Shown: positions 4,624 to 32,120 of the stretch, in pieces
Numbering within the stretch: position 1 is the stretch's first letter
Layout: every line of letters begins with the position of its first letter
NCBI GenBank assembly: GCA_028066985.1
Contig: JALCBB010000009.1
Location: 1 to 32,120 of the forward strand
DNA from: Alphaproteobacteria bacterium
GTDB taxonomy: Bacteria > Pseudomonadota > Alphaproteobacteria > JALCBB01
DNA length: 32,120 nt
Direction of reading: 5' to 3'
Position numbers and translations under genes: made by a program
The notes under the pieces: generated by a model
The model's input: the letters and a program-made list of their open reading frames with translations, nothing else
What the model was told of the DNA's origin: nothing
Databases searched by the model: none

Positions 4624-4718
4624 TTTCTGGCGCGGGTGACGCGGCGCGCTTTGTTCCACGGGATGCATTGACCCTGCCGCCTTTCTGCCCTTTAGGAGAC
4701 AGACGAAGCACGGTCTCC

Positions 4719-4810
4719 GGCATTAGTGGGCGTTAAAATTCAGACTAGCCACGACAGCGGCTCAAGCGAGCGATGCCGGCAGATGGGTGCGGGCTAGCCC
4801 GCAAAAAATT
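4719..4810 (+). repeat. R1 dispersed repeat, copy b
   Basis: GGCATTAGTGGGCG opens the copy at 4719 and GCGGGCTAGCCCGC plus an A-tract closes it. Immediately upstream (4693-4718) is the conserved R1 flank TTTAGGAGACAGACGAAGCA. No facing partner is visible downstream. It lies between comM and the first accessory stretch. Confidence 0.9.
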
Positions 4811-4910
4811 AAAATTTGTTTCAAAGATTTCGTTGACGCCGCCGTGATTTTGTCTGATTTCCGCGCAATTTTTGGGTTTGCGGGAACAAATTTAATCCAC
4901 AATCAAGGTG

Positions 4911-8470: not shown

Positions 8471-8493
8471 CTTAATTTAGAATGATTCTCAAA

Positions 8494-8820
8494 ATGTTTC
8501 GCGCGAAACATTAAAATTTGCCGGAGAGTGATCTTGGGCATTAGTGGGCGTTTGACTAAGACATTCACGGTGTCGGCTCAAGCGAGCGGCACCCACTGAT
8601 GCCTGTCGGCGCTGCCGACAAAAAAAATAAAAAATGTGAATTTTTAATGTTTCGCGCGAAACAATTGGCGGCGGGGTTAATGTTTCACGCGAACCGCAGG
8701 TCGCCAAACATTAGACGGGCAGCCGCGCCACCCTCCCAATTGTTTCGCGTGAAACATCGAGGACGGAGACGACGAGTGGCGGGGGGCGGCAGGGCGTCGG
8801 TGATGTTTCGCGCCAAACAT
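8494..8820. repeat. Palindrome cluster A (parS-like 16-mers)
   Basis: Sites of the form TGTTTCNCGNGAAACA occur at 8495-8510 and 8648-8663 (core CGCGCG) and at 8741-8756 (CGCGTG). A one-arm mismatch copy (GCCAAACA) is at 8804-8819. A longer interrupted variant at 8681-8712 reads TGTTTCACGCGAACCGCAGG and then TCGCCAAACA. The established bacterial parS consensus is TGTTTCACGTGAAACA; the best sites here differ from it by one base. The last four sites lie between facing R1 copies c and d. Confidence 0.85.
8537..8628 (+). repeat. R1 dispersed repeat, copy c
   Basis: GGCATTAGTGGGCG opens at 8537. The inner inverted arm CCCACTGATGCC is intact, and the terminal hairpin is TGTCGGCGCTGCCGACA with an A-tract. 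It faces copy d, about 190 bp away, giving a 374-bp composite with R1 as terminal inverted repeats. Confidence 0.9.
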
Positions 8821-8821
8821 T

Positions 8822-8910
8822 AATTTTTTTGCGGGCGGCGCCCGCAGGCATCAGTGGGGATCGCTCGCTTGAGCCGACATCGTGGCTAGTCCAGAATTCA
8901 CGCCTGCTGA
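8822..8910 (-). repeat. R1 dispersed repeat, copy d
   Basis: The T-tract and GCGGGCGGCGCCCGC hairpin lie at the left end and match the inner end of R1. The outer end has diverged (GGCATTAG replaced by a CAGCAGGCG-like sequence). It pairs face to face with copy c. Confidence 0.85.
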
Positions 8911-9214: not shown

Positions 9215-9416
9215 ATGTTTCGCGCGAAACATCCGGCACTCCCGCCAGACCAAAAAAACACACTTTTTTAATGTTTCGCGTGAAACATTAACCCCGCCCC
9301 CAATTGTTTCGCGCGAAACATTGGACGGACAGCCGCGCCGCCCCCTCCCCAGTCGCCCCGCAGATCAAAAAACGCGTCTTTTTAATGTTTCGCGCGAACC
9401 GCAGGTCGCCAAACAT
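9215..9416. repeat. Palindrome cluster B (parS-like 16-mers)
   Basis: Perfect sites are at 9216-9231 and 9305-9320 (core CGCGCG) and at 9272-9287 (CGCGTG). An interrupted variant is at 9386-9416. From 9300 to 9420 the sequence is close to the reverse complement of 12020-12135, including the spacer with GATCTGCGGGG and the A-tract/T-tract around ACGCGT. The cluster ends about 60 bp beyond the 3' end of ubiA. Confidence 0.88.
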
Positions 9417-11910: not shown

Positions 11911-11929
11911 GGGACGAAGTGCTGTCTGT

Positions 11930-12022
11930 GGCATTAGTGAGAGTTTGACTAAGACATTCACGGTACCGGCTCAAGCGAGCGATCCCCACTGATGCCTGCG
12001 GGCGCCGCCCGCAAAAAAATTA
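11930..12022 (+). repeat. R1 dispersed repeat, copy e
   Basis: GGCATTAGTGAGAG opens at 11930, preceded from the gshA stop onward by the flank TTAGGGGACGAAGTGC. The copy ends with the GCGGGCGCCGCCCGC hairpin, an A-tract and TTAA, and runs directly into palindrome cluster C. No facing partner is present. Confidence 0.9.
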
Positions 12023-12308
12023 ATGTTTGGCGACCTGCGGTTCGCGTGAAACATTAAAAAAGCGCGTTTTTTTGATCTGCGGGGTGACAGGAGAGGGGGC
12101 GGCTGTCCGTCCAATGTTTCACGCGAAACAATTGGCGATGCCCCCTCATTTGTCCAATGTTTGGCGACCTTCGGTTCACGAGAAACATATCCCCCCTGCC
12201 CCCCATTCGTCGTCTGTCCAATGTTTCACGAGAAACATCCCTTAATGTTTCGCGCGAAACATTAAAAAATTCAATGTTTTCAGTCTTTCGATGTTTCGCG
12301 CGAAACAA
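12023..12308. repeat. Palindrome cluster C (parS-like 16-mers)
   Basis: Interrupted variants are at 12023-12054 and 12157-12188. Full 16-mers are at 12115-12130 (core CACGCG), 12222-12237 (CACGAG), 12246-12261 and 12292-12307 (CGCGCG). The site at 12246 extends to a perfect 24-bp palindrome bounded by TTAA on both sides (12242-12265). The order interrupted site, palindromes, P2 is the mirror image of 9118-9416. Confidence 0.88.
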
Positions 12309-12727: not shown

Positions 12728-12903
12728 CCGGATGCGCCGCCCTGTTTGACGCGAATGACATAAGTCGCTCGTGGCGAGCGCGGGGGTTGACAGCCATACT
12801 GAATAAAGGTAGAGTGGCACTGGTTGTTCACCCCGAACGCGTGAATCCAAGCAAGGAACGGAGAATTCTACGATGGACAAGAAAGCGGTGCTCGATGAGA
12901 TAA
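12724..12903 (+). pseudogene. Truncated PIN-domain toxin remnant
   Basis: The ORF overlaps the antitoxin stop by ATGA and begins MTGCAALFDAND. The LFDAN block matches the first strand and first metal-binding Asp of PIN toxins (typically A-LDANVLYPAP). After it the frame continues into unrelated sequence and ends after 59 codons. The remaining acidic residues of the PIN active site are missing, so no nuclease can be made. The breakpoint lies near 12758, just before the promoter of the next gene, which suggests that insertion of the downstream block removed the toxin. Confidence 0.55.
12787..12815 (+). promoter_or_regulatory. Promoter of the HEPN-motif gene
   Basis: A perfect TTGACA, 17 bases, TAGAGT. 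The ATG at 12873 has CGGAGA about 10 bases upstream. Confidence 0.6.
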
Positions 12904-14156
12904 CTCATCACTACCTGCGCTCCCGGCAGTTCAATGGGGTGCTTTTAACCAACCTGGGGGAGAATTACGAAGAGTTGAAGGAAACTCTGAAACAGCTGTT
13001 GAGCGAGGGGAAAATCGTTCTGGTCTTTGGAGACAGACACCCGAATCCTCACATACTGGCTGGAGAGCCAGAGCCGAAGGATGTGCAGATGTCGAAGCTG
13101 GCGGCATTGAAGTTTGAAAAACCCGTCTACGAGGGGGATGGCCCGATCGTGTTCCAGACAAATTCCATCAATTGCTGCGCGTATCCGTCCAGGGAGCACT
13201 TGAAAGCCGTGGTTGGCAATGAAGAATACGGGGACGAGCCGTTTGTAAAGCGTCTCGCCCTTGGCGAGTCTCAGCTTTCACACAAGGTGTTTAATCTGGG
13301 GGTCCTGGAGTATTACAGGAATGATCCCAGATACCGCTATGTGGCGGATGATGTCCAGGGGCACATCACGGCGACGTCAGAGGAGCAATTGGCGGAAGAG
13401 GATGAGATCTTCATTCAGTTCGGGTTTACCCGCGACGATGATGGACGCCATGTCACGGCGCTTCTGTGGGATTTGTCTCTGCTGTCCCCTAAGCATCAGC
13501 AAAAATGGAATTTGGAAATCCATGCCGATGAAGCACCCTTGCACCCTGACCATGCGAGAACGATCGCGGGTTATTGGCGGGAGGGGGAGTCGGTTTTTGT
13601 CGCCTTCTGCAAGGAGCTGGAAATTATCAACAGGATGACAGAGAGGGTTTGGGGCAAGCCTCTGTTCATGAGAACTTTCGACGGGGAGGACAGGCCAAGA
13701 AAGTTTTCTCTCATCGTAAGAACGACGGGAGAAGAGTACGGGCACTTTGTCCAGCTTCTGGACAAAATGATCTGGGACAACCTGAACAGAAAGTTTTTCA
13801 AAGGTCAGATGGATCTGACCGAACAGGTGGAGCAAGATGGCAAAACCATCGAGCGAAACAAGAGCCCGGTTCGGCTGCTCGAAGAGTGGCTGTACAGCAA
13901 CGTGAGGTTTCAGGACACGGAGCCCGTGGATGAGATGATTGCCGCGTTCAACAAAGTCAGAAAACAGCGAAACAAGTTTTCGCATCGCATCAGCGATAAC
14001 GACTTTGACAGCGAGTACCACAACATCCAGCGGAGCCTGATGAGAGAGGCGTACAGCGGTGTCAGGCTGTTGCGGCTGATTTTTTCCAATCATCCTCTGG
14101 CAAAGGATATCGAGGTGCCTGACTGGCTGTACGAGGGTAAGATCTGGGATTCCTGA
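12873..14156 (+). CDS. Unknown protein with winged-helix-like start and HEPN-type C-terminus
   Basis: I do not recognise this 427-residue protein as a named family. The first 45 residues (DEITHHYLRSRQFNGVLL...LSEGKIVLVF) look like a small helix-turn-helix domain. The middle has no familiar motif. The C-terminus carries RNKFSH at 366-371 inside a helical region (VDEMIAAFNKVRKQRNKFSH, then a second long helix). R-x4-H is the catalytic motif of HEPN ribonucleases, which are common effectors in toxin-antitoxin and anti-phage systems. GC content is lower than in neighbouring housekeeping genes. It has its own promoter and lies directly before a methylase and a probable endonuclease, so a defence role is likely but inferred. 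Some HEPN-like folds are inactive. Confidence 0.75.
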   Translation: MDKKAVLDEITHHYLRSRQFNGVLLTNLGENYEELKETLKQLLSEGKIVLVFGDRHPNPHILAGEPEPKDVQMSKLAALKFEKPVYEGDGPIVFQTNSINCCAYPSREHLKAVVGNEEYGDEPFVKRLALGESQLSHKVFNLGVLEYYRNDPRYRYVADDVQGHITATSEEQLAEEDEIFIQFGFTRDDDGRHVTALLWDLSLLSPKHQQKWNLEIHADEAPLHPDHARTIAGYWREGESVFVAFCKELEIINRMTERVWGKPLFMRTFDGEDRPRKFSLIVRTTGEEYGHFVQLLDKMIWDNLNRKFFKGQMDLTEQVEQDGKTIERNKSPVRLLEEWLYSNVRFQDTEPVDEMIAAFNKVRKQRNKFSHRISDNDFDSEYHNIQRSLMREAYSGVRLLRLIFSNHPLAKDIEVPDWLYEGKIWDS

Positions 14157-14313
14157 TCTTATGCCTCTCGGCGGGCGGGGATGCGGTTTTTGTTCGGTTT
14201 TCCACCGTTTATTGATTCCCCGCCTGCCTGGAATCAAAATTTCCCCTGGATTGTCCGGGCCTGTCGTGCTATCCTCGGCGAATCGCAACGAGGAGAAAAC
14301 CACCGGCACCAAA

Positions 14314-15303
14314 ATGGCGATCGCAGGCGAGCAGCACACTTTGGACATCCCGAGTCCGCCAAGGCGCAAGAGCGCGAGATCCGAGCAGGTCTACCGAAAG
14401 GAGATGTTCCTGAGCCGGCAGCGCTCGCCCGCCGGACGCATCCCCTACAAAAGATACCTCGGCGCGCCCATTCGCTACGCGGGAGGAAAAAGCCTGGCGA
14501 CCGGAATCATCATCGAGCAGATTCCGGGCGACATACGGCGCCTCGTGTCGCCGTTCATCGGCGGCGGATCAATTGAGGTCGCCTGCGCCGTTGAAATCGG
14601 AATCCCCACCGTCGGATATGATGTGTTCGATGTCCTGACGACCTACTGGAAGGCGCAATTGCGGCATCCCGCCGCGCTTTACGAAAGGCTCTCCAGGTTC
14701 GAGGCGACTCCGGAAGAATTCCGCAGAGCCAAGGAGACCCTGCGCCAGCACTGGAAGAAGGAGAGGCGCGACCTGCACTGGCTGGATGTCGCCGCGCTTT
14801 ACTACTTCACGCACAACACCTCGTACGGCCCCGGCTTTCTCAGCTGGCCCTCCTACATCTACATGAACCAGGATCGCTACGAGAAGATGATCAAGAAGGT
14901 CGCGCAATTCGCCGCGCCGAATCTGACCGTGGAACAGGCGTCTTTCGAGACGGTGTTGCCGAAGCACCGAAACGACTTCCTGTACTGCGATCCTCCGTAC
15001 TATCTGGGGAGAGACACCAAAATGTTCCGCGGCATTTATCCGCAGCGGAATTTCCCCATCCATCACAACGGCTTCGACCACGCTCTTCTCAAGGACCTGC
15101 TCAACAGGCACAAAGGAGGCTTCCTGCTCTCGTATAACGACTGCCCGCAGATTCGGGAGTGGTATGCGGACTATGAGATTTCAACTCCGTCCTGGCAGTA
15201 TACGCTTGGTCAGGGAGAGACGCGCATCGGCAAGTATCGCCCGGACGGAAACCATGTGAAACAGTCGCACGAACTGCTTATCTATGCCCCGCCCGCAGCG
15301 TAA
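14314..15303 (+). CDS. D12-class (Dam-like) N6-adenine DNA methyltransferase
   Basis: The 329-residue protein has the alpha-class layout of Dam/DpnM enzymes: APIRYAGGKS (54-60) and PFIGGGSIEVA (80-90) form the AdoMet site near the N-terminus, and DPPY (226-229, in DFLYCDPPYYLG) is the catalytic motif later in the chain. It therefore methylates adenine N6 at a sequence I cannot predict. The frame is open from 14161, but the first 51 codons look like non-coding sequence; the ATG at 14314 is the first reasonable start, though the only GAGGAG is rather far upstream (near 14290). The next gene begins within or just after its stop and encodes a probable endonuclease, giving a type II restriction-modification pair. 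Confidence 0.88.
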   Translation: MAIAGEQHTLDIPSPPRRKSARSEQVYRKEMFLSRQRSPAGRIPYKRYLGAPIRYAGGKSLATGIIIEQIPGDIRRLVSPFIGGGSIEVACAVEIGIPTVGYDVFDVLTTYWKAQLRHPAALYERLSRFEATPEEFRRAKETLRQHWKKERRDLHWLDVAALYYFTHNTSYGPGFLSWPSYIYMNQDRYEKMIKKVAQFAAPNLTVEQASFETVLPKHRNDFLYCDPPYYLGRDTKMFRGIYPQRNFPIHHNGFDHALLKDLLNRHKGGFLLSYNDCPQIREWYADYEISTPSWQYTLGQGETRIGKYRPDGNHVKQSHELLIYAPPAA

Positions 15304-15310
15304 AAGAGCG

Positions 15311-16060
15311 ATGACTTCCAAGGCCGCTTCTGAAAAGAAGAGAGGCGGGCACAGGAAGGAGGACGAGTACGCCAGCCTCATCGGCGGAGAGGTTGAGACG
15401 GGCACCGAGAAGAAGGATGTCACAGATGCTCACGGCAGAGGGCACTCTGTGAAAGGGGGGAAGTATTCTCAGGTGTTTTTGTATTCCCGTGAACGCTTCG
15501 TGACAAACACGACATTCTGGGACATGGGATTGTCGCAGATTTTCATTGACTGCCTGGATGCGTTCCCGGATGGCTTCGATGTCTACAAAGCGGACAAATT
15601 TCGCTACAAAGAGCGGCTCAGGAAGCCGATGCGCGCGCTCGCCGACCGTCTGAACGAAGAGGGGATGCTGGAAAAATTCCTGAACAAGTCTTTTCTGGAG
15701 GCTGGCAGAGAAGATGACGGCAGGAGAGTGGATTTTCTCGCCATTAAGCGGGGAAGGATTTTCCATGTCTTCAAGGGACTTGAAGTCGGAAAAATTCTTG
15801 CGGATACCCTGCAGGTGAGAAATTCCGTGGGAAGGGGAAGCGGGCAAGTCTCGGATCAGAAGGTGCTGGTATGGCACGAGCGAAATGTGGGGGAAGTCGA
15901 GCTGCGGAACGACTCCTCCAGACATTATCGCCAGATGAAATTCCGCATGAATTTGCATCTGACAGCGGACCTCCTGATGGAGGGGCTGGGAGAGGGACAG
16001 GTCGTCAAGAATCGGGTGAGGGCGTATGGAGAGGCGACAAAAATTCCTTTTGTGCGCTGA
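15311..16060 (+). CDS. Probable type II restriction endonuclease
   Basis: A 249-residue protein encoded 7 bp after the methylase (an ATG at 15284, overlapping the methylase by 20 bp, is the alternative start). Near the N-terminus it has EVETGTEKKDVTDAHGRGHS followed by VKGGK, which fits a PD-(D/E)xK-type active site: Asp36/Asp39, then Ser46-Val-Lys48 in the place of (D/E)xK. QVFLYSRERF follows. The rest is a mixed alpha/beta protein without a named domain that I can recognise. The assignment rests on this motif and on the methylase partner. Recognition site unknown. If the (D/E) position is truly Ser, activity would need a variant metal site. Confidence 0.65.
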   Translation: MTSKAASEKKRGGHRKEDEYASLIGGEVETGTEKKDVTDAHGRGHSVKGGKYSQVFLYSRERFVTNTTFWDMGLSQIFIDCLDAFPDGFDVYKADKFRYKERLRKPMRALADRLNEEGMLEKFLNKSFLEAGREDDGRRVDFLAIKRGRIFHVFKGLEVGKILADTLQVRNSVGRGSGQVSDQKVLVWHERNVGEVELRNDSSRHYRQMKFRMNLHLTADLLMEGLGEGQVVKNRVRAYGEATKIPFVR

Positions 16061-16243: not shown

Positions 16244-16408
16244 TCAGGCGCTTCGACAATCCTTGTTCTTTGTCTTGCCCTTACACTCGTTGCAAAGATC
16301 GGACCCGGGATGGGAATTTCTTTCGGTGTAGCCTCGTGTCGGCCAATTAGAGCAGTTTCGGCACCAGTGCCAGACATTGCTCCCACTTCTACTGCGGTAC
16401 TTCGCCAT
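16244..16408 (-). CDS. Small zinc-ribbon-like protein
   Basis: A 54-residue basic protein with two cysteine pairs: WHWCRNCSNWPT and DLCNECKGKTKNKDC. The CxxC...CxxC pattern indicates a single zinc ribbon. I know similar short proteins with a WHFC-NCSNWP core from proteobacteria, without assigned function. The start has a GGAGG seven bases upstream on the - strand. An imperfect inverted repeat, TTGATTGTCA/TCATTATCAA (16422-16441), lies just upstream and might be an operator. Easily missed because a longer antisense frame overlaps it. Confidence 0.75.
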   Translation of the reverse strand: MAKYRSRSGSNVWHWCRNCSNWPTRGYTERNSHPGSDLCNECKGKTKNKDCRSA

Positions 16409-16578: not shown

Positions 16579-16620
16579 CAAAAATGGCGGGGGTGGCGGC
16601 TAACGCCACCACCCCCGCCC
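16579..16620 (-). terminator. Strong intrinsic terminator of the 39-residue peptide unit
   Basis: On the - strand GGCGGGGGTGG pairs with CCACCCCCGCC (16586-16619). Inner pairs around a GTTA loop give a stem of about 15 bp, followed by ATTTTTG. Confidence 0.85.
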
Positions 16621-16659
16621 GGCTCTTCGTTCCGGAGAGAACCACCCCCCTAGGGAGGG

Positions 16660-16779
16660 CTAGCTCTCTTTCTCGACAATCTTCCTCGCAGGGAGGAATA
16701 TGAGCCAAGAAAAATCACCACTTGCAACCAAAGTCACAAGCAGGATAGCCAAAACGAAGGACCTAATTTCAAAGGCCAT
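16660..16779 (-). CDS. 39-residue hydrophobic peptide, type I toxin-like
   Basis: The ORF starts MAFEIRSF and continues with a single hydrophobic segment (VLAILLVTLVASGDFSWLIF, residues 9-28), then a basic/charged tail LPARKIVEKES. It has a strong GGAGG four bases before the ATG. The ATG lies in the loop of a small hairpin (AGGCC-TTAT-GGCCT), which would hinder initiation. A consensus sigma70 promoter, a leader of about 105 nt with two hairpins, and a strong terminator make it a self-contained unit between the defence island and the aldehyde dehydrogenase operon. Size, single membrane span and translational occlusion fit a type I toxin or a small regulatory membrane peptide. I do not recognise the family. 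A + strand ORF over the same bases (16700) has a ribosome-like site but no promoter. Confidence 0.65.
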   Translation of the reverse strand: MAFEIRSFVLAILLVTLVASGDFSWLIFLPARKIVEKES

Positions 16780-16885
16780 AAGGCCTCCTTTAAATAAAAA
16801 TGAAGCCGCTCGCGACGCAAGCGGACTTCATGAACGCCCTCGGCCAGCTCCAGCACCTTGCTGGAACAGCCAAAGGCTTATTATT
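16780..16885 (-). ncRNA. Structured leader of the small-peptide transcript
   Basis: From the expected start near 16885 the leader holds one hairpin at 16842-16871 (core CCAGC/GCTGG) and a second at 16801-16830 (TGAAG...CTTCA with CCGCT/AGCGG inside), then an AU-rich stretch and the GGAGG. A possible 13-codon leader ORF (MKSACVASGFIFI) starts in the second hairpin, and its TAA stop lies next to the ribosome site of the main peptide, so translation may be coupled. Regulation is inferred from structure only. Confidence 0.5.
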
Positions 16886-16890
16886 TTTGT

Positions 16891-16919
16891 ATGATAACAC
16901 ACCTTATTCTAAATGTCAA
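16891..16919 (-). promoter_or_regulatory. Consensus sigma70 promoter of the small-peptide unit
   Basis: On the - strand a perfect TTGACA (16914-16919), 17 bases, TATCAT (16891-16896). It is among the best promoter matches in the window. Confidence 0.8.
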
Positions 16920-16952: not shown

Positions 16953-17039
16953 TTTTTGCGGGCTAGCCCGCACCCGTCTGCTGGCATCGCTCGCTTGAGC
17001 CGACGCCATGAGTGTCTCAGTCAATCTCCCACTAATGCC
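16953..17039 (-). repeat. R1 dispersed repeat, copy f
   Basis: The copy runs on the - strand from GGCATTAGTGGGAG to GCGGGCTAGCCCGC and an A-tract. The conserved outer flank is very clear here (17040-17067), reading TTAAGGAGATAGCGAAGCGC on the - strand. It ends about 20 bp before the aldehyde dehydrogenase start. Confidence 0.9.
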
Positions 17040-17088
17040 ATAAATCGCGCTTCGCTATCTCCTTAATTTTTTATGCTAAAATGGCGCC

Positions 17089-18531
17089 ATGGCAAACTCC
17101 TTCGACAACTTCATCGCGGGCGAGTGGATCAACGGCGAGTCATACCTCGAAAACCGCAGCCCCTCCGACACCTCGGACCTCATCGGCCTCTACGCCCAGG
17201 CCTCCAGAAAACACCTGGAAACCGCCCTCCAGGCCGCCCGCGAAGCCGCGAAACTCACCCGCGACATCCCCCTCGAAACCAGACAAAACGCCCTCGCACA
17301 GATCGGACGCGAACTCGTCAGCCGCGCCGGCGAACTCGGCACGCTCCTCAGCCGCGAAGAAGGCAAACCCCTCGCCGAAGGACAGGCCGAAGTCAAACGC
17401 GCCGGCCAGTTCTTCGACTACTACGCCGCCGAAGTCCTGCGCCAGGAAGGCATCGCCATCGACTCCGTGCGCCCCGGCGTTGAAATAGAGGCGCGCCACG
17501 AGCCGATGGGCGTGGTCGCCGTCATCTCGCCGTGGAACTTTCCCGCCGCCACCGCCTCCTGGAAAATCGCCCCCGCCCTCGCCTTCGGAAACGCCGTCAT
17601 CTGGAAACCCGCCAGCCAGACTCCCGCCACCGCGCACGCCCTCGCCGAAATCATCTCGCGCGCCGGCCTCCCCGCCGGCGCCTTCCAATTGCTCATGGGA
17701 AGCGGCGGCGAAATCGGCGACGCCCTCGCCTCGCACGCCGGCGTCAACGCGATCTCCTTCACCGGCTCCGTCGCCACAGGACGCCGCATCGCCGCCGCCG
17801 CCGCGCAAAACCTCACCCGAATACAACTGGAACTCGGCTCCAAGAACGCCGTCCTCGTCGCCGACGACGCCGACCTCAGCCTCGCCCTGGAAGCATGCCT
17901 CGCCGGCGCATACTCCGGCAGCGGACAAAAATGCACGGCGTCCTCGCGCATTCTCGTCGACCGCGCCGTCCACGACGAGTTTGTCGCCCGCCTCGCCGAG
18001 CGCGTCGCCGCGCTCAGAGTCGGACACGCCCTGGATAAAGAAACGCAGGTCGGTCCGGTCGTCAGCGCCGGGCAACTCGCCGCCAACCTCGCCTGGATGG
18101 AAAAAATCCGCGCCTCCGACGCGAAAGTCCTCTGCGGCGGCGACGCCCTCAAACTCAAACACGACGGACACTACATGTCGCCCGCCCTCGTCGCCGAAAG
18201 CCGCAACGACATGGACTTCAACCGCGAAGAACTCTTCGCGCCGATCGCCGCCGTCCAGAAGACGGACAGTTACGAAGAGGGCATCGCCGTCGTCAACGAC
18301 ACCGACACCGGGCTTGTCGCGGCGATTTTCACGGCGTCGCTCGCTCGCGCGCGGCATTTTCAGAGACACGCCGAGACCGGCTGTGTTTCGGTCAATCTGC
18401 CGACGGCGGGCACCGACTACCATGTCCCGTTCGGCGGACGCAAGAACTCGTCCCTCGGCGCGCGCGAGCAGGGACGCGCCGCCGTCCAGTTCTACACCCA
18501 GACCAAGACCACCTACTCGCGCGCGGGCTGA
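17089..18531 (+). CDS. NAD(P)-dependent aldehyde dehydrogenase, ketoglutarate semialdehyde type
   Basis: A complete 480-residue ALDH-superfamily enzyme that oxidises an aldehyde to an acid. The cofactor and catalytic motifs are all present: SPWNFPAA, FTGSVATGR, LELGSKN with Glu248, and GSGQKCTASS with the nucleophile Cys282, plus the C-terminal FGGRKNSSLGAREQG. The QKCTASSR context is typical of 2,5-dioxovalerate (alpha-ketoglutarate semialdehyde) dehydrogenases, which feed sugar-acid or hydroxyproline breakdown into 2-oxoglutarate; this substrate is an inference. Codons are strongly C-ending at the start and less so later. It heads a run with an M19 dipeptidase and two unknown proteins, which suggests amino-acid or peptide catabolism. 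Confidence 0.88.
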   Translation: MANSFDNFIAGEWINGESYLENRSPSDTSDLIGLYAQASRKHLETALQAAREAAKLTRDIPLETRQNALAQIGRELVSRAGELGTLLSREEGKPLAEGQAEVKRAGQFFDYYAAEVLRQEGIAIDSVRPGVEIEARHEPMGVVAVISPWNFPAATASWKIAPALAFGNAVIWKPASQTPATAHALAEIISRAGLPAGAFQLLMGSGGEIGDALASHAGVNAISFTGSVATGRRIAAAAAQNLTRIQLELGSKNAVLVADDADLSLALEACLAGAYSGSGQKCTASSRILVDRAVHDEFVARLAERVAALRVGHALDKETQVGPVVSAGQLAANLAWMEKIRASDAKVLCGGDALKLKHDGHYMSPALVAESRNDMDFNREELFAPIAAVQKTDSYEEGIAVVNDTDTGLVAAIFTASLARARHFQRHAETGCVSVNLPTAGTDYHVPFGGRKNSSLGAREQGRAAVQFYTQTKTTYSRAG

Positions 18532-18543
18532 AACGAAACGAAG

Positions 18544-19521
18544 ATGGCGCCGGCGCATCGCATTGACTGTCTCCAGTACGCCGCCTGGTCGCCGCGCATT
18601 TTTGAAGAGATGGCCGCGGGCGGACTCCACGCGGTGCATGCGACCGTCGCCTATCACGAGAATTTCCGCGAGACCGTCGCGCGTCTTGAGGAGTGGAATC
18701 GCTTCTTCGCGCGCAACCCCGAACGAATTCTGCGCGGACGCGACGCCGCCGATGTCCGCCGCGCGCGCGAGACCGGACGCACCGCGATCTTCTTCGGCGC
18801 CCAGAACTGCTCCCCGATAGAAGACGACCTCGGACTCGTTGAGGTCTGCCGCGATCTCGGTCTTCGCTTCATGCAATTGACCTACAACAACCAGTCGCCC
18901 CTCGCCGCCGGATACCTTGAGGAGCGCGACTGCGGCGTCACCCGTTTCGGACGCGAAGTCATCGCCGAGATGAATCGCGTCGGTCTGGTCGTGGATATGA
19001 GTCATTCGGGCGAGCGTTCCACGCTTGAGGCGATTGAGATTTCGGAGCGTCCGGTGGCGATCACGCATGCGAATCCGGCGCGCTGGCGCGAGACGCCGCG
19101 CAACAAGTCCGAGGAGGTCATCGCGGCGCTGGCGGCGGGCGGCGGCGTGATGGGTTTTTCGCTGTATCCGCATCATATGAAGGACGGCGGCGCGTGCCGG
19201 CTGGACGACTTCTGCCGAATGGTCGCCGAGACTGTGGAACGGCACGGCGCGGAGAGTTTCGGCATCGGCTCCGATCTTTGTCAGGGACACGGCGGCGATG
19301 TTCTCGCCTGGATGCGCGACGGACGCTGGCGCTTCGGCAAGGATGACAGCGACAGCGCGGAATTTCCGCCGCAGCCGGAGTGGTTTCGCACGAACGCCGA
19401 CTTCCCCAATCTCGCCGAGGGACTTCGCAAGGTCGGGTTTAATGAAAGCGAGACGGACGCGCTCCTCGGCGAAAACTGGCTGCGATTTTTTGAGTCGTCC
19501 TTCACGCCGCGAGACGAATGA
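18544..19521 (+). CDS. Membrane dipeptidase (M19) family protein
   Basis: A 325-residue TIM-barrel hydrolase of the M19 renal dipeptidase family. Visible motifs are GAQNCSPIEDDLGLV, QLTYNNQSPLAAG, FGREVIAEMNRVGLVVDMSHSG, the second-metal histidine ITHANPARW, RNKSEEVIAAL and GIGSDLCQGHGGD. The canonical N-terminal metal pair HxD is not seen: the corresponding place reads RIDCLQY, as in a subfamily that has D-LQY here. Substrate preference may therefore differ from true dipeptidases. It starts 12 bp after the aldehyde dehydrogenase stop, and its stop overlaps the next gene by ATGA, so the genes are co-transcribed and probably co-translated. No signal peptide is visible, so the protein is likely cytosolic. 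Confidence 0.85.
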   Translation: MAPAHRIDCLQYAAWSPRIFEEMAAGGLHAVHATVAYHENFRETVARLEEWNRFFARNPERILRGRDAADVRRARETGRTAIFFGAQNCSPIEDDLGLVEVCRDLGLRFMQLTYNNQSPLAAGYLEERDCGVTRFGREVIAEMNRVGLVVDMSHSGERSTLEAIEISERPVAITHANPARWRETPRNKSEEVIAALAAGGGVMGFSLYPHHMKDGGACRLDDFCRMVAETVERHGAESFGIGSDLCQGHGGDVLAWMRDGRWRFGKDDSDSAEFPPQPEWFRTNADFPNLAEGLRKVGFNESETDALLGENWLRFFESSFTPRDE

Positions 19522-21629
19522 CGGCAGACCCGGCGACAGGCTTGACGGCGGAGCATCGCGCGCCCGGCGAGGTGATGCGTCTGGCGCGGATGGGGTCGGC
19601 GTTTCCGACGCGCATCAGTTTCATGCGGAGTCTGGTGCGGCGGCTGGCGTCCGGCGGCGGCGCGGTGCGTCGCGTCCTCTGGGAGATGGACGACAACGGC
19701 TACGGCCGCGCCGTCTATTCGCTCAGCATTGACGGACGCGACTACAGTCTTGTCGCTTTTTCCGGCGCGCTGGATTCCGAGCAGCGCACCGACCGCGTGA
19801 TCGCCGAGGCGTGGGACGCGAGTTTCGTTCTGTTTGACGGTGTTCCCGGCGCGGATGATATCGCGCGTCTTGAGGCGCGCGCGCCGAAGCAGGAGGCGGC
19901 GCTGTTTTCGGAGCGCGAACTTGTGCTGAGCCGCGCGAACAAGTCGGTGCGCGCGTTTGAGCATACGGTCGCGTGTCTCGCGGAGGGCAGACAGCCCGAC
20001 GCCGCGCTTGTCAACGACACGGGGTATCTGATGCGGACGACCGCGGTGTACGGCAACGGCAAGTTCGGCGTGCGCGACCGTTCGCGTGACGCGGCGCCTC
20101 TGCTGACGGCGCCGTTTCGCGCGGAGTTGCTGGCGGTGTGGCTGATTCGCGGTTTTTCGCATGACCTTGTTGAGCATGTGGCGGCGCGGCGGAATCCGGG
20201 TCGTGCTGTTAAATTGTCGCCGGAGTTGCGGCGGCATCTCGGCATCGGCAATTCCACGGGTTTGGGGATGGCGCCGTTTCTGGTGTCGCATCCGACGCTT
20301 CTGCATCGCTGGATTCGCGCGCGCGAGGAGGCTTTATTGCGCGCGCGACGGCTTGAGACGCTTTCGGCGGCGCACATCGCGCTGTTGCGGCGGCTGATTG
20401 TTCGGGCGCGGAGTCATCTGGGGCAGTGGAATGTCCGTGACGAGAGACAAATGGCGCGGATTTTTGTTCTGCGCCGCGAGTGGGACGAACTTGCCGTCCT
20501 CGCGACGGACGAATTTTTAGCGCTGCCGCGCGCCAACGAGAGACTTTTCGCTTTCGCGCGCGCGCGTTCGCCGGAATTTCAGGAACTTGTGGTTTCGCTG
20601 ATACTTGAGCCGTGCGGAGAGATCATTGACGACCTTGCCGACGAGATGGGTTCGGCGGGCGAGTCTGCGCTGGCGCCGGCGATGACGCTTGGCGAACTTC
20701 GTTCGCGTCTGCGGCGCGACTACGGGTGGGCGCTGGAGGCGGATCTTGCCCTGCCGCGCGCGCGTCATCAGTTCTGGTATGTGTCGCAGGAGAAACTTGA
20801 GCCGCGGATCGGCGAGCGAGCGAGCGAGGCGGGCGCGGAGAAGGAACTGCCGCTGGACATTGTGGCGCGTATTCAGTCTCTGGCGCGCGACCTTGAGAAT
20901 GATCTTGACGGGGACGACAACGACGGCGCCGTTAATGTCGACAGCAAGGACAACAACGGCGGCGCCGTTAATGTGTCTGTTAATATGGACGATAACGGGG
21001 GCGGTTATATGTCCAAAGATATGGACAATGACGGCGCCGTTAATGTGTCCAAGAATATGGACGACGACAGGGACAATAACGCGGGCGGTTATATGTCCAA
21101 AAACAACGCGTCCAAAAAGGTCGGCGGCGGCGCGGATGACATTGACGACAAAAACGGCGCCGTCAATGTGTCTGTTAATATGGACGACAACGGCGGCGCC
21201 GTTAATGTGTCCGACAATATGGACAATAACGGGGGCGGTTATATGTCCAAAAGCATTGACAACGACGGCGCCGTTAATGTCGATGACAATGTGGACGGCG
21301 GCAGTCGTCCATTAAAAAGTCAAAGCGTCGCGGAATTCCTCATCCGCCGCCCGCAGCACCGCTACGCCGTCCGCCGCGTCCAGAACACCCTCGCCTACAG
21401 CGAAATCCGCGACAACCTCACCGACCGGCACAGCCTCGCCATTGACATGCTCCGCCTCAAACTCGCCTTCTTCGGCGCCACCAAGTTTGACCCCAAGTCC
21501 GACCGCTGGACACGCATCACCCTCTTCCAGGGCGCGCCATGCGCCGCCGACATCGCCGAAAAAAACGCCGACGACTGGTGGATGCCCGTCCTCAATAACG
21601 GCGGCAGCGGCGACAACGCCGGCGAATGA
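19518..21629 (+). CDS. Large conserved-looking protein of unknown function with a repeat insert
   Basis: A 703-residue protein that I do not recognise as a named enzyme. The N-terminal part (residues 1-455) is an ordinary mixed fold with segments such as PTRISFMRSLVRRL, RAVYSLSIDGRDYSLVAFS and GKFGVRDR. Residues about 461-596 are a low-complexity Asp/Asn/Gly insert of repeated blocks (GAVNVS, NMDDNGG, GYMSK). The last 105 residues (SVAEFLIRRPQHRYAVRRVQNT...) return to normal sequence and probably belong to the same domain set. It overlaps both neighbours by ATGA, so it belongs to the aldehyde dehydrogenase-dipeptidase operon and probably serves the same catabolic pathway. Composition switches from G/T-rich before the insert to C-rich after it. 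Confidence 0.75.
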   Translation: MTADPATGLTAEHRAPGEVMRLARMGSAFPTRISFMRSLVRRLASGGGAVRRVLWEMDDNGYGRAVYSLSIDGRDYSLVAFSGALDSEQRTDRVIAEAWDASFVLFDGVPGADDIARLEARAPKQEAALFSERELVLSRANKSVRAFEHTVACLAEGRQPDAALVNDTGYLMRTTAVYGNGKFGVRDRSRDAAPLLTAPFRAELLAVWLIRGFSHDLVEHVAARRNPGRAVKLSPELRRHLGIGNSTGLGMAPFLVSHPTLLHRWIRAREEALLRARRLETLSAAHIALLRRLIVRARSHLGQWNVRDERQMARIFVLRREWDELAVLATDEFLALPRANERLFAFARARSPEFQELVVSLILEPCGEIIDDLADEMGSAGESALAPAMTLGELRSRLRRDYGWALEADLALPRARHQFWYVSQEKLEPRIGERASEAGAEKELPLDIVARIQSLARDLENDLDGDDNDGAVNVDSKDNNGGAVNVSVNMDDNGGGYMSKDMDNDGAVNVSKNMDDDRDNNAGGYMSKNNASKKVGGGADDIDDKNGAVNVSVNMDDNGGAVNVSDNMDNNGGGYMSKSIDNDGAVNVDDNVDGGSRPLKSQSVAEFLIRRPQHRYAVRRVQNTLAYSEIRDNLTDRHSLAIDMLRLKLAFFGATKFDPKSDRWTRITLFQGAPCAADIAEKNADDWWMPVLNNGGSGDNAGE
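20898..21305 (+). repeat. In-frame palindromic repeat array inside the unknown gene
   Basis: About 400 bp are built from alternating modules: GGCGCCGTTAATGTGTC..., and a hairpin-forming ATGGACRATAACGGGGGCGG followed by TTATATGTCCAAA. The second module is an inverted repeat (TGGAC...GTCCA). It resembles the hairpin in the spacer between R1 copies j and k (TGGACGGACAACGGGCGGCT then GGTTCGTCCA). All modules keep the reading frame. Confidence 0.8.
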
Positions 21630-22340: not shown

Positions 22341-24437
22341 ATGTTCTCCTGCCCGATGCATCCCGAAGTGAAACAGGACAAGCCCGGCGGCTGCCCGTCC
22401 TGCGGAATGACGCTCGTCTCGCGCGACCCCGCCGCCGCGCCCGATCACGCCATGCGAAACCATCTCGCGGTCGCCGCGGTTTTCGCCGCGCCTGTGGTTG
22501 TCCTGGCGATGACCGGCGCGTTTGACGACACCCTCGCGCCGCGGACTTCGGGCATGATTCAACTTGTCTGCGCGGCGCTGACGCTTTTTCTCGGCGGCGC
22601 GCCCCTTTTCGCGCGCGCCTTCGCCGGACTTCGCCGACGCTCTCTTAATATGTTCACGCTGATTGCTCTCGGGACTTCGCTCGCGTGGTTTTACAGCGCG
22701 GCGGCGCTTTTCTTTCCGGAGAGTTTTCCCGCCGGGTTTCGCGGCGATGACGGAACGCTGCCGCTTTATTTTGAGTCGGCGGCGCTGATAGCGGTTTTCG
22801 TCCTTCTCGGACAGACTCTGGAGGAGCGCGCGCAGAAAAAGACTTCGCGCGCGCTCCGCGACCTGCTCGCGCTCGCGCCGACGAAGGCGTTCCGCGTCCG
22901 CGACGGCGGCGGCGACGAGGAGATTCCTGTTTCGGAGGTTCGCGCGGGCGATGTTCTCCGCGTCCGCCCCGGCGGACAGATTCCCGTTGACGGCGTTGTT
23001 TCCGCCGGCGCCTCGCATGTCAGCGAGGCCGGACTGACGGGCGAGCCGCTGCCGCGCGCGGTCGCGTCCGGCGACACCGTGTTCGCCGCGACTCTCAACC
23101 TTGAGGGCGCTCTGCTTGTGCTTGCCGCTTCCGACGCCGGCAATTCGCGCATTGAGCAGATTGCGCGTCTTGTCGCCGAGGCGCGCTCTTCAACGGCGCC
23201 GGCGCAGCGTCTCGCGGACCGGGTGTCGGCGTTTTTCATTCCGGCGATTCTGGCGGCGGCGCTTCTGACATTTCTGGCGTGGATATTTTTCGGCGGCGAG
23301 AGCGGCGCCTTGTTCGGACTTGTGGCGGCGGTGAATGTTCTGATCATCGCGTGTCCGTGCGCGCTCGGACTCGCGACGCCGGTTTCGGTCGCGGTCGCGG
23401 TCGGACGCGGCGCGCGTCTCGGCATTCTCGTGCGCGACGCGGCGGCGCTGGAGACGCTCGCGGCGGCGGACTGCGTTTTTCTTGACAAGACCGGCACTTT
23501 GACGGCGGGCGCGCCGGTGTTGTCGCATATTCATCCGGCGGGAGATTTCACGGAGGCGGCTGTGCTTGAGCGGGCGCGCGCGGTTGAGGAGAACAGCGAG
23601 CATCCGATGGCGCGGGCGGTGATGGCGACGGCGAACGAGCGACTGAGTTCGGCGACGGAGACAGGGGAGGTTTATTCGGCGGAGAACTTTCGTTCGGTGC
23701 CTGGGATGGGAGTGATTTGTGATTATGGCGGCGAGTCACTGGCGTTCGGCAACGAGCGACTTATGACGGAGACGGGTGTGGATGTCGGCGCGGTCGCGGA
23801 TGTTGTTGAGGCGCGCCGGGCGTCGGGCGAGGAGGTGGTTTTTCTAAGTTGCGACGGAGTGTTGGCGGCGTTGTTTTGTTTCGCGGACGAGTTGCGCGAG
23901 GGCGCTGCCGCCGCTGTGGACGAGATGCGTGGTTCAGGTTTGCGTCTCGGAATTTTGACGGGCGGCGGACGCGAGGCTGCTGTGGCGGCGGGGGAGATGC
24001 TTGGGATTGACGAGGTATATTCGGGTTTGTTGCCTGAGGAGAAGGCGCGGGTGGTGCGGGAGCGGATGTCCGAGGGTTTGCGAGTTGTGATGGCTGGTGA
24101 CGGAGTTAATGACGCGGCGGCGCTGGCGGTTGCGGATGCTGGAGTGGCGGTGTTGGGTGCGAGTGATCTGGCGCGGGAGAGTTCGGATGTGGTGTTGCTG
24201 CGTTCCGGGCTGGGTGTGGTGGTGGAGTTGTTTGATCTTTCGCGGGCGGTGGCGAGGAATGTGCGTCAGAATCTGTGTTTTGCGTTCGCGTATAATTTAT
24301 GCGCGGTACCTGTGGCGGCGGGTGTTTTTTATTTTGTGTGGGGGTGGTTGTTGTCGCCGATGGTGGCGGCGGTGGCGATGTCTTTGAGTTCTTTGAGTGT
24401 CATTCTTAACGCGCTCCGCCTCTCCCGCAAAAATTAA
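22341..24437 (+). CDS. copA: Copper-type P1B ATPase with N-terminal CPMHPEV metal module
   Basis: A 698-residue heavy-metal-exporting ATPase. The N-terminus is not a classical HMA domain but the short metal-binding module FSCPMHPEVKQDKPGGCPSCGM. Then come membrane helices, the actuator TGEPLPRA, the transmembrane CPC (residues 338-340, in CPCALGLATP), the phosphorylated Asp382 in DKTGTLT, the HP motif (421-422) and the hinge GDGVNDAAAL (Asp587). The CPC plus this N-terminal module indicates Cu+ (possibly Ag+) export. It lies 7 bp after the preceding stop, but metal export is unrelated to the upstream catabolism. The coding strand shifts from C-rich to strongly G/T-rich along the gene, and its stop codon is part of the R1 flank TTAAAGAGAC. 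Confidence 0.92.
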   Translation: MFSCPMHPEVKQDKPGGCPSCGMTLVSRDPAAAPDHAMRNHLAVAAVFAAPVVVLAMTGAFDDTLAPRTSGMIQLVCAALTLFLGGAPLFARAFAGLRRRSLNMFTLIALGTSLAWFYSAAALFFPESFPAGFRGDDGTLPLYFESAALIAVFVLLGQTLEERAQKKTSRALRDLLALAPTKAFRVRDGGGDEEIPVSEVRAGDVLRVRPGGQIPVDGVVSAGASHVSEAGLTGEPLPRAVASGDTVFAATLNLEGALLVLAASDAGNSRIEQIARLVAEARSSTAPAQRLADRVSAFFIPAILAAALLTFLAWIFFGGESGALFGLVAAVNVLIIACPCALGLATPVSVAVAVGRGARLGILVRDAAALETLAAADCVFLDKTGTLTAGAPVLSHIHPAGDFTEAAVLERARAVEENSEHPMARAVMATANERLSSATETGEVYSAENFRSVPGMGVICDYGGESLAFGNERLMTETGVDVGAVADVVEARRASGEEVVFLSCDGVLAALFCFADELREGAAAAVDEMRGSGLRLGILTGGGREAAVAAGEMLGIDEVYSGLLPEEKARVVRERMSEGLRVVMAGDGVNDAAALAVADAGVAVLGASDLARESSDVVLLRSGLGVVVELFDLSRAVARNVRQNLCFAFAYNLCAVPVAAGVFYFVWGWLLSPMVAAVAMSLSSLSVILNALRLSRKN

Positions 24438-24460
24438 AGAGACAACGAAGCGCGATATTT

Positions 24461-24550
24461 GGCATTAGTGGGAGTTAAATTCAGACATTCACGATAGCCG
24501 CTCAAGCGAACCGCACCCGCTGATGGCTGGCGGCACTGCCGCCAAAAAAA
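24461..24550 (+). repeat. R1 dispersed repeat, copy g
   Basis: Preceded by the full flank TTAAAGAGACAACGAAGCGC from 24434, which contains the copA stop. GGCATTAGTGGGAG opens the core, and GGCGGCACTGCCGCC plus A-tract closes it. It faces copy h. Confidence 0.9.
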
Positions 24551-24659
24551 TTAAAAAATAATAAGAAAACAATTTATTTAATGACCCCATTAATTGTCCA
24601 TGTTAACAAGAGAAGAGTTTATTTAATTTGACCCCTTAAATAGTCCAATTATTTTTTAA
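24551..24659. repeat. Spacer of R1 pair g-h with two direct repeats
   Basis: An AT-rich spacer holds two imperfect copies of TTTATTTAAT(TT)GACCCC, then TTAA and GTCCA (about 24573-24602 and 24617-24651). No ORF is supported. Confidence 0.6.
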
Positions 24660-24749
24660 TTTTTTTTGCGGGCTAGCCCGCACCCATCTGCCGGCATCGC
24701 TCGCTTGAGCCAGCATCGTGAATGTCTTAGTCAAACTCCCACTAATGCC
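24660..24749 (-). repeat. R1 dispersed repeat, copy h
   Basis: A complete - strand copy with hairpin GCGGGCTAGCCCGC. With copy g it makes a 289-bp composite whose ends are R1 inverted repeats. Confidence 0.9.
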
Positions 24750-24780
24750 AGCGGCGAGCCGTCGCAGGCTTAAGTTGGCG

Positions 24781-24833
24781 CGGTTCGCTTGAGCCAGCAT
24801 CGTGAATGTCTTAGTCAAACGCCCACTAATGCC
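24781..24833 (-). repeat. R1 dispersed repeat, copy i (5' half only)
   Basis: Only the outer half of R1 is present, reading on the - strand from GGCATTAGTGGGCG to about TCAAGCGAACC; the inner hairpin is missing. Its outer flank (GTGAGACTTTCCGGAGAACG on the - strand) begins exactly at the rimM stop codon. Confidence 0.8.
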
Positions 24834-24855
24834 AAATATCGTTCTCCGGAAAGTC

Positions 24856-29610: not shown

Positions 29611-29656
29611 AGACAGGCGACGGCCGCCGTGCCGGGTCAATCGGCGATAAGCCTTC

Positions 29657-29748
29657 GGCATTAGTGGGAGTTAACTTTAGACTCTTACAGTGGCGGCTCA
29701 AGCGAGCAGCACCCACTGTCGCCTGCGGGCGCCGCCCGCAAAAAATTA
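29657..29748 (+). repeat. R1 dispersed repeat, copy j
   Basis: GGCATTAGTGGGAG opens at 29657; hairpin GCGGGCGCCGCCCGC and A-tract close it. The flank TTAAGGAGACAGGCGACGG begins at 29605, with extra sequence between flank and core. Faces copy k across a spacer with a TGGACGGACAAC...GGTTCGTCCA hairpin. Confidence 0.9.
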
Positions 29749-29801: not shown

Positions 29802-29891
29802 TTTCTTTGCAGGCAGCGCCTGCGGGCATCAGCGGGTGCGGTTCGCTTGAGCGGCTGTCGTGACTGTCTTAGTCAAACTCCCGCTAATGCC
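29802..29891 (-). repeat. R1 dispersed repeat, copy k
   Basis: A - strand copy with hairpin GCAGGCGCTGCCTGC. Its flank runs to the palindrome at 29910-29929 (GTCTCTTTAATTAAAGAGAC). With copy j it forms a 235-bp composite between znuA and zur. Confidence 0.9.
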
Positions 29892-29953
29892 AAATGCCTG
29901 TCGTCGTCTGTCTCTTTAATTAAAGAGACAGCAACACAAGGAGCCGCAGCCTG

Positions 29954-31219: not shown

Positions 31220-32038
31220 ATGTTCGCCGACTTCGCCGCCGTGCTTGGAGAGCCGTTCGTGCGCGACGCGTTCGCGCTTGTTCTGGTGTGCGGACTGCTC
31301 GCGGGCCCGCTCGGCTGTTTCGTCATCTGGCGGCGGATGGCGTATCTCGGCGACGCGCTCGCGCATGTGGCTTTGCTCGGAGTTTCTCTGGGGATAGTGG
31401 CCGGAGTGTCGCCGTTGTTTCCGGCGGTGGCGGTGACATTGGGGGCGAGCGCGCTGATGTCTCCGCTTGAGCGGGCGAGCGGATTGTCGCGCGACGCGGT
31501 GCTTGGAATTTTCGCGCATGGCGCGCTGGCGCTGGCGGTTCTGCTGGTTGTGATTGCCGCGCCTTATGGAGTTGCGGGGTTGCATGGATTTTTCTTCGGC
31601 GATGTGTTTGCGAGTTCGCCGGGGGAGCGGCGGGCGGTTTTTGCGGCGGCGTTCGGGGCGTTGTTGGTGCTGGGGGTGTTGCGGCGTCCGTTGTTGCGGG
31701 TGGTGTTGTCGCGGGACCTGGCGCGCGCGGAGGGTTTGCCGGCGGCGTTATTGGAGGCGGTGCTGGCGGTGGTGATGGCGGTGGCGGTGGTGATGGCGAT
31801 GTGGGTGGTGGGTTTGCTGCTGACGGCGACATTGCTGGTGTTGCCGGCGGCGTCGGCGCGAATGTGGTCGCGTTCGCCGGAGGGGATGGCTTTGCTTGCG
31901 GGTTTGTTTGCGCTGGCGGCGACGGGCGGCGGTTTTTGTTTAGCGCTGTTTTTTGATTTACCTGGCGGCCCGACGATCGCGCTGTTCTCGCTCTGCTTAT
32001 TCATAACAAGCCTCTCGGCGAACCGCTTCTGGCATTAG
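31220..32038 (+). CDS. znuB: Zinc ABC transporter permease ZnuB, with stop codon inside an R1 repeat
   Basis: The 272-residue inner-membrane permease has the typical helices and the loops WRRMAYLGDALAHVALLGV and GFFFGDVFASS, and the C-terminal LLLTATLLVLPAASARM and PGGPTIAL segments. The ATG at 31220 has an AAGG upstream; a GTG at 31211 is the alternative. The final codons Trp-His-stop (TGG CAT TAG) are the first bases of R1 copy l, so insertion of the repeat defined the present end of the protein. The coding strand is strongly G/T-rich in the second half. Confidence 0.92.
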   Translation: MFADFAAVLGEPFVRDAFALVLVCGLLAGPLGCFVIWRRMAYLGDALAHVALLGVSLGIVAGVSPLFPAVAVTLGASALMSPLERASGLSRDAVLGIFAHGALALAVLLVVIAAPYGVAGLHGFFFGDVFASSPGERRAVFAAAFGALLVLGVLRRPLLRVVLSRDLARAEGLPAALLEAVLAVVMAVAVVMAMWVVGLLLTATLLVLPAASARMWSRSPEGMALLAGLFALAATGGGFCLALFFDLPGGPTIALFSLCLFITSLSANRFWH

Positions 32039-32120
32039 TGGGCGTTTGACTAAGACATTCACGATAGCCGCTCAAGCGAGCGATGCCAACTAATGCCCGC
32101 AGGCGCTGCCTGCAAAAAAA
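32031..32120 (+). repeat. R1 dispersed repeat, copy l
   Basis: GGCATTAGTGGGCG opens at 32031 inside the last codons of znuB; the hairpin GCAGGCGCTGCCTGC and A-tract reach the window end. A facing partner, if present, lies beyond the edge. Confidence 0.9.

Follow-up and report, generated by a model that had tools for sequence, protein, structure and literature searches.

The 32,120-nt stretch of DNA analysed here (the window) is contig 118 of a draft genome that comprises 199 contigs and 2.0 Mb. Between 12.0 and 17.0 kb its GC content is 0.51-0.59, compared with 0.61-0.69 in both flanks, which fits an acquired island, and oppositely oriented copies of a dispersed repeat (11914-12023 and 16953-17068) flank this stretch. 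Positions 12873-16060 of the island hold a 427-aa ORF, a gene for a D12 adenine methyltransferase (PADLOC type II methyltransferase, E 1e-107) and a 258-aa ORF. Neither ORF belongs to a known family, and no relative was found for the former in 181 genomes or for the latter in 399; the order of the three genes could be that of a restriction-modification or defence locus, its partners unrecognised. Beside the methyltransferase gene, between the gene for a cysteine-rich protein (16247-16408, minus strand) and an aldehyde dehydrogenase gene (17089-18531, plus strand), the island also contains a single minus-strand transcription unit of ~310 bases with its own start and stop signals (Table 1). We considered whether this unit is part of the dispersed repeat and rejected it, as the repeat ends at ~16953, upstream of the promoter.

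Table 1 Features of the transcription unit at 16581-16919
Feature	Position	Strand	Details and basis
Sigma-70-type promoter, extended -10	16891..16919	-	TTGACA (begins 16919), 17-nt spacer, TATCAT (ends 16891), TG before the -10; consensus scan, 11/12
Leader hairpin H1	16836..16877	-	19 bp, -31.1 kcal/mol, mean pair probabilities 0.96-0.99 (fold)
Leader hairpin H2	16800..16831	-	14 bp, -19.6 kcal/mol, followed by a U-run, terminator-like (fold, terminator scan)
Possible 13-codon leader ORF MKSACVASGFIFI	16790..16831	-	Sequence and fold
Ribosome site AAAGGAGG	16784..16791	-	4 nt upstream of ATG
Hairpin H3	16771..16788	-	-10.4 kcal/mol; pairs GGAGG of AAAGGAGG (fold)
ORF for MAFEIRSFVLAILLVTLVASGDFSWLIFLPARKIVEKES, 39 aa	16660..16779	-	Hydrophobicity, shuffles, structure model
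Four-way junction RNA domain	16621..16763	-	Closed by 3+11 bp, helix 16763-16749 / 16635-16621 (fold)
Intrinsic terminator	16581..16619	-	15-bp stem 16619-16586, 4-nt loop, then ATTTTT

The promoter, called near-perfect in the preliminary description of this locus, has an extended -10 element and is the sole site scoring at least 11/12 on either strand of the window. Transcription is expected to start at ~16884, giving a leader of ~105 nt, and only the 39-codon ORF is bracketed by this promoter and the terminator. The 15-bp terminator is present on the minus strand as described, and an independent terminator scan, which found 6 sites against 1.3 expected in shuffles, picks up both it and the terminator-like H2. 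The existence of the unit is confirmed, with all of the elements described for it in place, and it is better supported than the preliminary description could know.

Both leader hairpins noted earlier are strong in the predicted fold, and the possible 13-codon leader ORF does exist. The GAGGG ribosome site of this ORF is hidden within H1, its start is located in H2, which the ORF overlaps, and it ends with a stop codon that shares bases with the main ribosome site. A U/A-rich single-stranded stretch separates H2 from H3, and in folds of the growing chain no alternative antiterminator fold of the leader appeared. The strong ribosome site of the 39-codon ORF had been described as having its ATG in a hairpin loop; this holds for the first two bases of the codon, A and U, which lie in the 4-nt loop of H3, but the G is paired.

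The 39-residue peptide had been read as a one-span hydrophobic peptide, and this agrees with a 19-residue Kyte-Doolittle mean that peaks at 2.12 and with a helix predicted at residues 2-20 (mean pLDDT 81, single-sequence model). At the C-terminus, R32, K33 and K37 are mixed with E36 and E38. Dinucleotide shuffling of the transcript, run 20,000 times, placed an AGGAGG 3-9 nt before an ATG with at least 30 open codons in 39 cases (0.2%), and did so with a segment about as hydrophobic in 1 (~0.005%). These figures, like those for the fold given below, are not fully a priori, because the site was chosen by visual inspection of 32 kb of sequence. When base pairs were permuted without altering the RNA structure or the start, an open 39-codon frame appeared in 21-25% of cases, but an open and equally hydrophobic one in only 0.4-0.6%. 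A chance origin of the ORF is unlikely. Its codon score is -0.215 versus a mean of 0.243 for the genes of the window, below the 1% level of 39-codon stretches, and its codon choice is poor even on the usage of the island genes (-0.087). Weighing these observations, we lean towards a coding ORF, although no relative of the peptide that could reveal coding selection turned up in any collection searched.

The 310-nt transcript folds to -174 to -175 kcal/mol, with a z-score of -13.0 and none of 100 shuffles as good; repeat tests gave -15.2 and -11.8. The fold comprises 117 base pairs and covers 75% of the bases, and mean pair probabilities are 0.9 to 1.0 for most helices. Structure had been understated in the preliminary description, since pairing continues past the leader through the ORF and the 3' UTR; all parts contribute (dinucleotide z -7.4 for the leader, -3.0 for the ORF and -5.8 for the 3' UTR). 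The 3' half of the RNA forms the four-way junction, which extends over most of the ORF into the 3' UTR and consists of three hairpins with almost no unpaired bases between them and pair probabilities near 1. Permuting synonymous codons within the ORF cost the whole fold 20 kcal/mol on average (z -4.4). As a yardstick we used E. coli mRNAs trimmed to 310 nt, with the start positioned as in the unit. The z-scores were about -6.3 for ldrA, ldrB and ldrC, -4.6 for tisB and -4.1 for hokB, while 21 ordinary genes, taken from both E. coli and the window, ranged from +1.5 to -2.8 and the methyltransferase gene of the window reached -4.1. The unit is more structured than the type I mRNAs tested (ldr, tisB, hokB).

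With G-U pairs forbidden, the transcribed strand and its complement fold alike (about -116 kcal/mol); with G-U pairs allowed, the gain is 58 kcal/mol on the transcribed strand versus 3 on the complement, and the z-scores are -11.8 versus -5.7. The G-U gain suggests selection on the RNA, although the two strands differ in raw folding energy by only 1.9 SD of the window's values (SD 30), a size of difference that is not rare there. DNA-level palindromes are a less likely source of the fold, much of the pairing requiring G-U on the transcribed strand (with the same reservation of 1.9 SD for the raw difference). No relatives were found through which covariation could bear on the fold.

This lack of relatives extended over all searches, in sampled collections that included one genome of the same family, so that the result applies to close reach and not to anywhere. 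At the DNA level the unit has no relative beyond chance in 190 genomes of the class, nor in plasmids or phages. Matches in the same-family genome were short GC-rich pieces only, and the two places that we read held no similar unit; likewise, of the degenerate DNA patterns run against viral contigs, one matched twice, both times outside any similar peptide or unit. Covariance models of two RNA domains recovered only the unit itself from 142 genomes of the class, including one of the same family, and loci around relatives of the neighbouring genes held no copy. Translated searches with the peptide found no relative in 59 related genomes, 299 genomes of the phylum, plasmids or phages, and conserved copies of the peptide behind the same leader, proposed as a check in the preliminary description, were accordingly absent from the genomes, plasmids and phages searched, none of which retains any portion of the unit. 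Weak recurrent matches (E 0.02-0.1, 40-57% over ~33 aa) fell mostly in frames of ~355-420 codons, to a membrane segment of what we take to be a YejB-like ABC permease, and were rejected as hydrophobic look-alikes. The peptide matches no model of Pfam, NCBIfam, PADLOC or PHROGs, and a Foldseek search with its predicted model gave no match. In Rfam 15 nothing in the unit reached a curated gathering score, riboswitch and leader families included; the best weak matches, BjrC80 (29 bits versus 80) and Scr6106 (33.7 versus 52.5), lay largely in the GC-rich terminator.

An antisense RNA over the leader had likewise been proposed as something to look for. The consensus scan, outside which other promoter types fall, showed no plus-strand promoter of at least 9/12 over the unit; a lone weaker site (8/12 at 16867) is directed away from it. 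Within the neighbourhood, the scope of this comparison as opposed to distant trans-acting sRNAs, no stretch has more than 9 exact nt complementary to the unit RNA. The plus-strand ORF at 16700-16894 was rejected as a gene on its non-coding codon choice (-0.485 per codon), and the objection that it might be the conserved coding sequence here does not apply because that codon choice is clearly non-coding.

The layout had been likened to type I toxin loci or small stress-regulated membrane peptides. Type I toxins are hydrophobic and helical, have fewer than 60 aa and usually carry cationic C-terminal residues (PMC8309996, review), and their mRNAs often have sequestered ribosome sites (PMC4147584, review). 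The likeness stands for the peptide, which is shorter than 60 aa and hydrophobic with one predicted helical membrane span, and for the sequestered ribosome site, the structured leader and the overlapping leader ORF; translation is predicted to be limited by mRNA structure, as GGAGG and the start of the leader ORF are paired. The likeness is partial, as no antisense RNA was recognised and the consensus scan gave no plus-strand promoter of at least 9/12, and filing the unit as a member of a type I toxin-antitoxin system is not justified.

Individual systems resemble the unit in different respects. Expression of hok depends on 3' processing and mok translation, that of tisB on 5' processing and a standby site (PMC4147584). 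With hok/mok/sok the unit shares a short membrane peptide, a structured mRNA and a locked ribosome site, and its upstream ORF, which overlaps the initiation region of the peptide, could couple translation; however, no Sok-like antisense promoter was found, there is no sequence relation to Hok, and over the same length the unit is far more structured than hokB (z about -15 versus -4.1). With tisB/istR-1 it has in common a ribosome site in a hairpin, an upstream single-stranded possible standby site and a one-span peptide, but we saw no divergent complementary sRNA and no sequence similarity. The ldr/rdl loci also combine a membrane peptide of the 35-residue class with a structured mRNA (ldr z about -6.3), whereas the unit is single copy, forms no tandem array, has no recognised antisense RNA gene and shows no similarity to them. 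In leader-peptide attenuators of the erm/cat type, a hairpin placed after the leader ORF conceals the next ribosome site. The unit has the same order of elements, but its downstream ORF encodes a 39-aa hydrophobic peptide and not an enzyme, and the ribosome site of its leader ORF is hidden too.

The reading that we favour is a self-inhibiting mRNA that encodes a small membrane peptide, possibly working like a type I toxin mRNA, to which we assign a probability of roughly 45%; the function proposed is one that we infer from a single sequence. In its favour are the promoter and terminator around this one ORF, the strong fold, the sequestered ribosome site and start, the rarity of such an ORF in the randomisations and the predicted helix; against it count the missing relatives, the atypical codon choice, the unrecognised antisense partner, a fold far stronger than in known type I mRNAs and the mixed charges at the C-terminus. 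A monocistronic mRNA of ~300 nt would encode the one-span 39-residue membrane peptide, with its structure holding translation off, and the full-length RNA would probably be nearly inert. Ribosomes might enter through a tisB-like standby site in the U/A-rich single strand between H2 and H3 or, in the manner of mok and hok, through coupled translation of the 13-codon leader ORF that stops on the ribosome site. Both routes would need unlocking, for instance by RNase cleavage or by refolding of H1 and H2, and H2 with its U-run may also cause many transcripts to terminate within the leader. Insertion of the peptide would be into the inner membrane, which an excess of it could depolarise. If the peptide is made, this would be a type-I-like unit whose control seemingly lies wholly within its own mRNA, with a fold exceeding those of hok, tisB and ldr, and it would test the need for an antisense partner.

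The main rival, which the preliminary description had not raised, is a structured non-coding RNA of ~300 nt, made up of H1, H2, H3, the four-way junction and the terminator, in which the 39-codon ORF is incidental. We consider it the less probable of the two, yet much of the fold speaks for it: z-scores of -12 to -15 are far past those of known type I mRNAs, the junction is compact with pair probabilities near 1, and G-U pairs add 58 kcal/mol on the transcribed strand versus 3 on the complement. The poor codon choice of the ORF and the frequency of open 39-codon frames in structure-preserving randomisations (21-25%) point the same way. These points are set against a properly spaced AAAGGAGG-ATG with a hydrophobic ORF, which is unlikely by chance, against the raw strand energy difference of only 1.9 SD of the window's, and against the absence of an Rfam family and of relatives whose covariation could prove the fold. 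If the ORF is incidental, the unit would be a hitherto undescribed RNA, ~300 nt long and structured, that contains a compact four-way junction; on either reading it is an orphan missed by current family libraries.

We give less weight to two further readings, a leader attenuator and a decayed remnant. Under the former, which we regard as improbable, a membrane peptide gene would be under leader control, with H2 as a conditional terminator that yields either a ~95-nt leader RNA or the full mRNA, and with leader ORF translation, or ligand or RNA binding to H1, as the switch. Such a device would agree with the score of H2 in the terminator scan and with the position of the leader ORF, inside H2 and ending at the main ribosome site, but the growing-chain folds gave no antiterminator, the ribosome site of the leader ORF is itself locked in H1, and no riboswitch or leader family of Rfam matched. 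The latter, very improbable in our view, would make the unit a remnant or a chance set of palindromes without present function in an acquired, repeat-bracketed island. The low-GC setting between dispersed repeats, the missing relatives, the atypical codons and the fact that other strongly folding stretches of the window are inverted repeats are in keeping with it; yet the promoter, the ribosome site, the ORF and both terminators are undamaged and correctly arranged, and the unit, in contrast to the inverted repeats of the window, occurs only once and has a transcribed strand that folds far better than its complement (z -11.8 versus -5.7). Quite improbable too is a new bifunctional RNA family of this lineage, in which a four-way-junction RNA would both carry and silence a membrane-active peptide without antisense RNA, release it only by cleavage or refolding and act as a guard beside the DNA methyltransferase island.

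Several other elements of the window were recorded. The dispersed repeat is ~110 nt long, with a core TGGCATTAGTGGGAGTTTGACTAAGACATTCAC followed by GGCTCAAGCGAGCGATGCCAGCAGATGGGTGCGGGCTAGCCCGC; the copy at 16953-17068 is on the minus strand, and besides the two copies flanking the island (one of them at 11914-12023) further ones lie at 15-132, 4696-4814, 8522-8635, 24437-24562, 24648-24848, 29642-29745, 29803-29906 and 32030-32120. Some copies are found at contig ends, in direct arrays or in inverted pairs. Across the 2-Mb genome 62 matches were scored (>600 first-look candidates), and none of 25 relatives, one of them from the same family, carries the repeat, which also had no Rfam match. A palindrome, TGTTTCGCGCGAAACA, recurs intergenically inside longer repeated segments (8492-8884, 9275-9322 and 12021-12307), and imperfect 36-39-nt direct repeats with GGCGCC occupy 20913-21304, within a 703-aa ORF that has no Pfam match.

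Among the neighbouring genes, the glutamate-cysteine ligase gene at 10429-11910 matches the plant-type model, a type common to alphaproteobacteria. The aldehyde dehydrogenase gene is followed by one for a membrane dipeptidase (M19), the pair spanning 17089-19521; the nearest models of the dehydrogenase are ketoglutaric-semialdehyde and dioxovalerate dehydrogenase, and its best relatives are alphaproteobacterial, with up to 68% identity. On the evidence of the ligase and the aldehyde dehydrogenase, the genome is probably alphaproteobacterial. The cysteine-rich protein encoded at 16247-16408 (minus strand) has 54 aa and a zinc-ribbon-like CRNC...CNEC arrangement; it belongs to no Pfam or NCBIfam family, but two distant genomes encode relatives of it (E 3e-16 and 4e-11).
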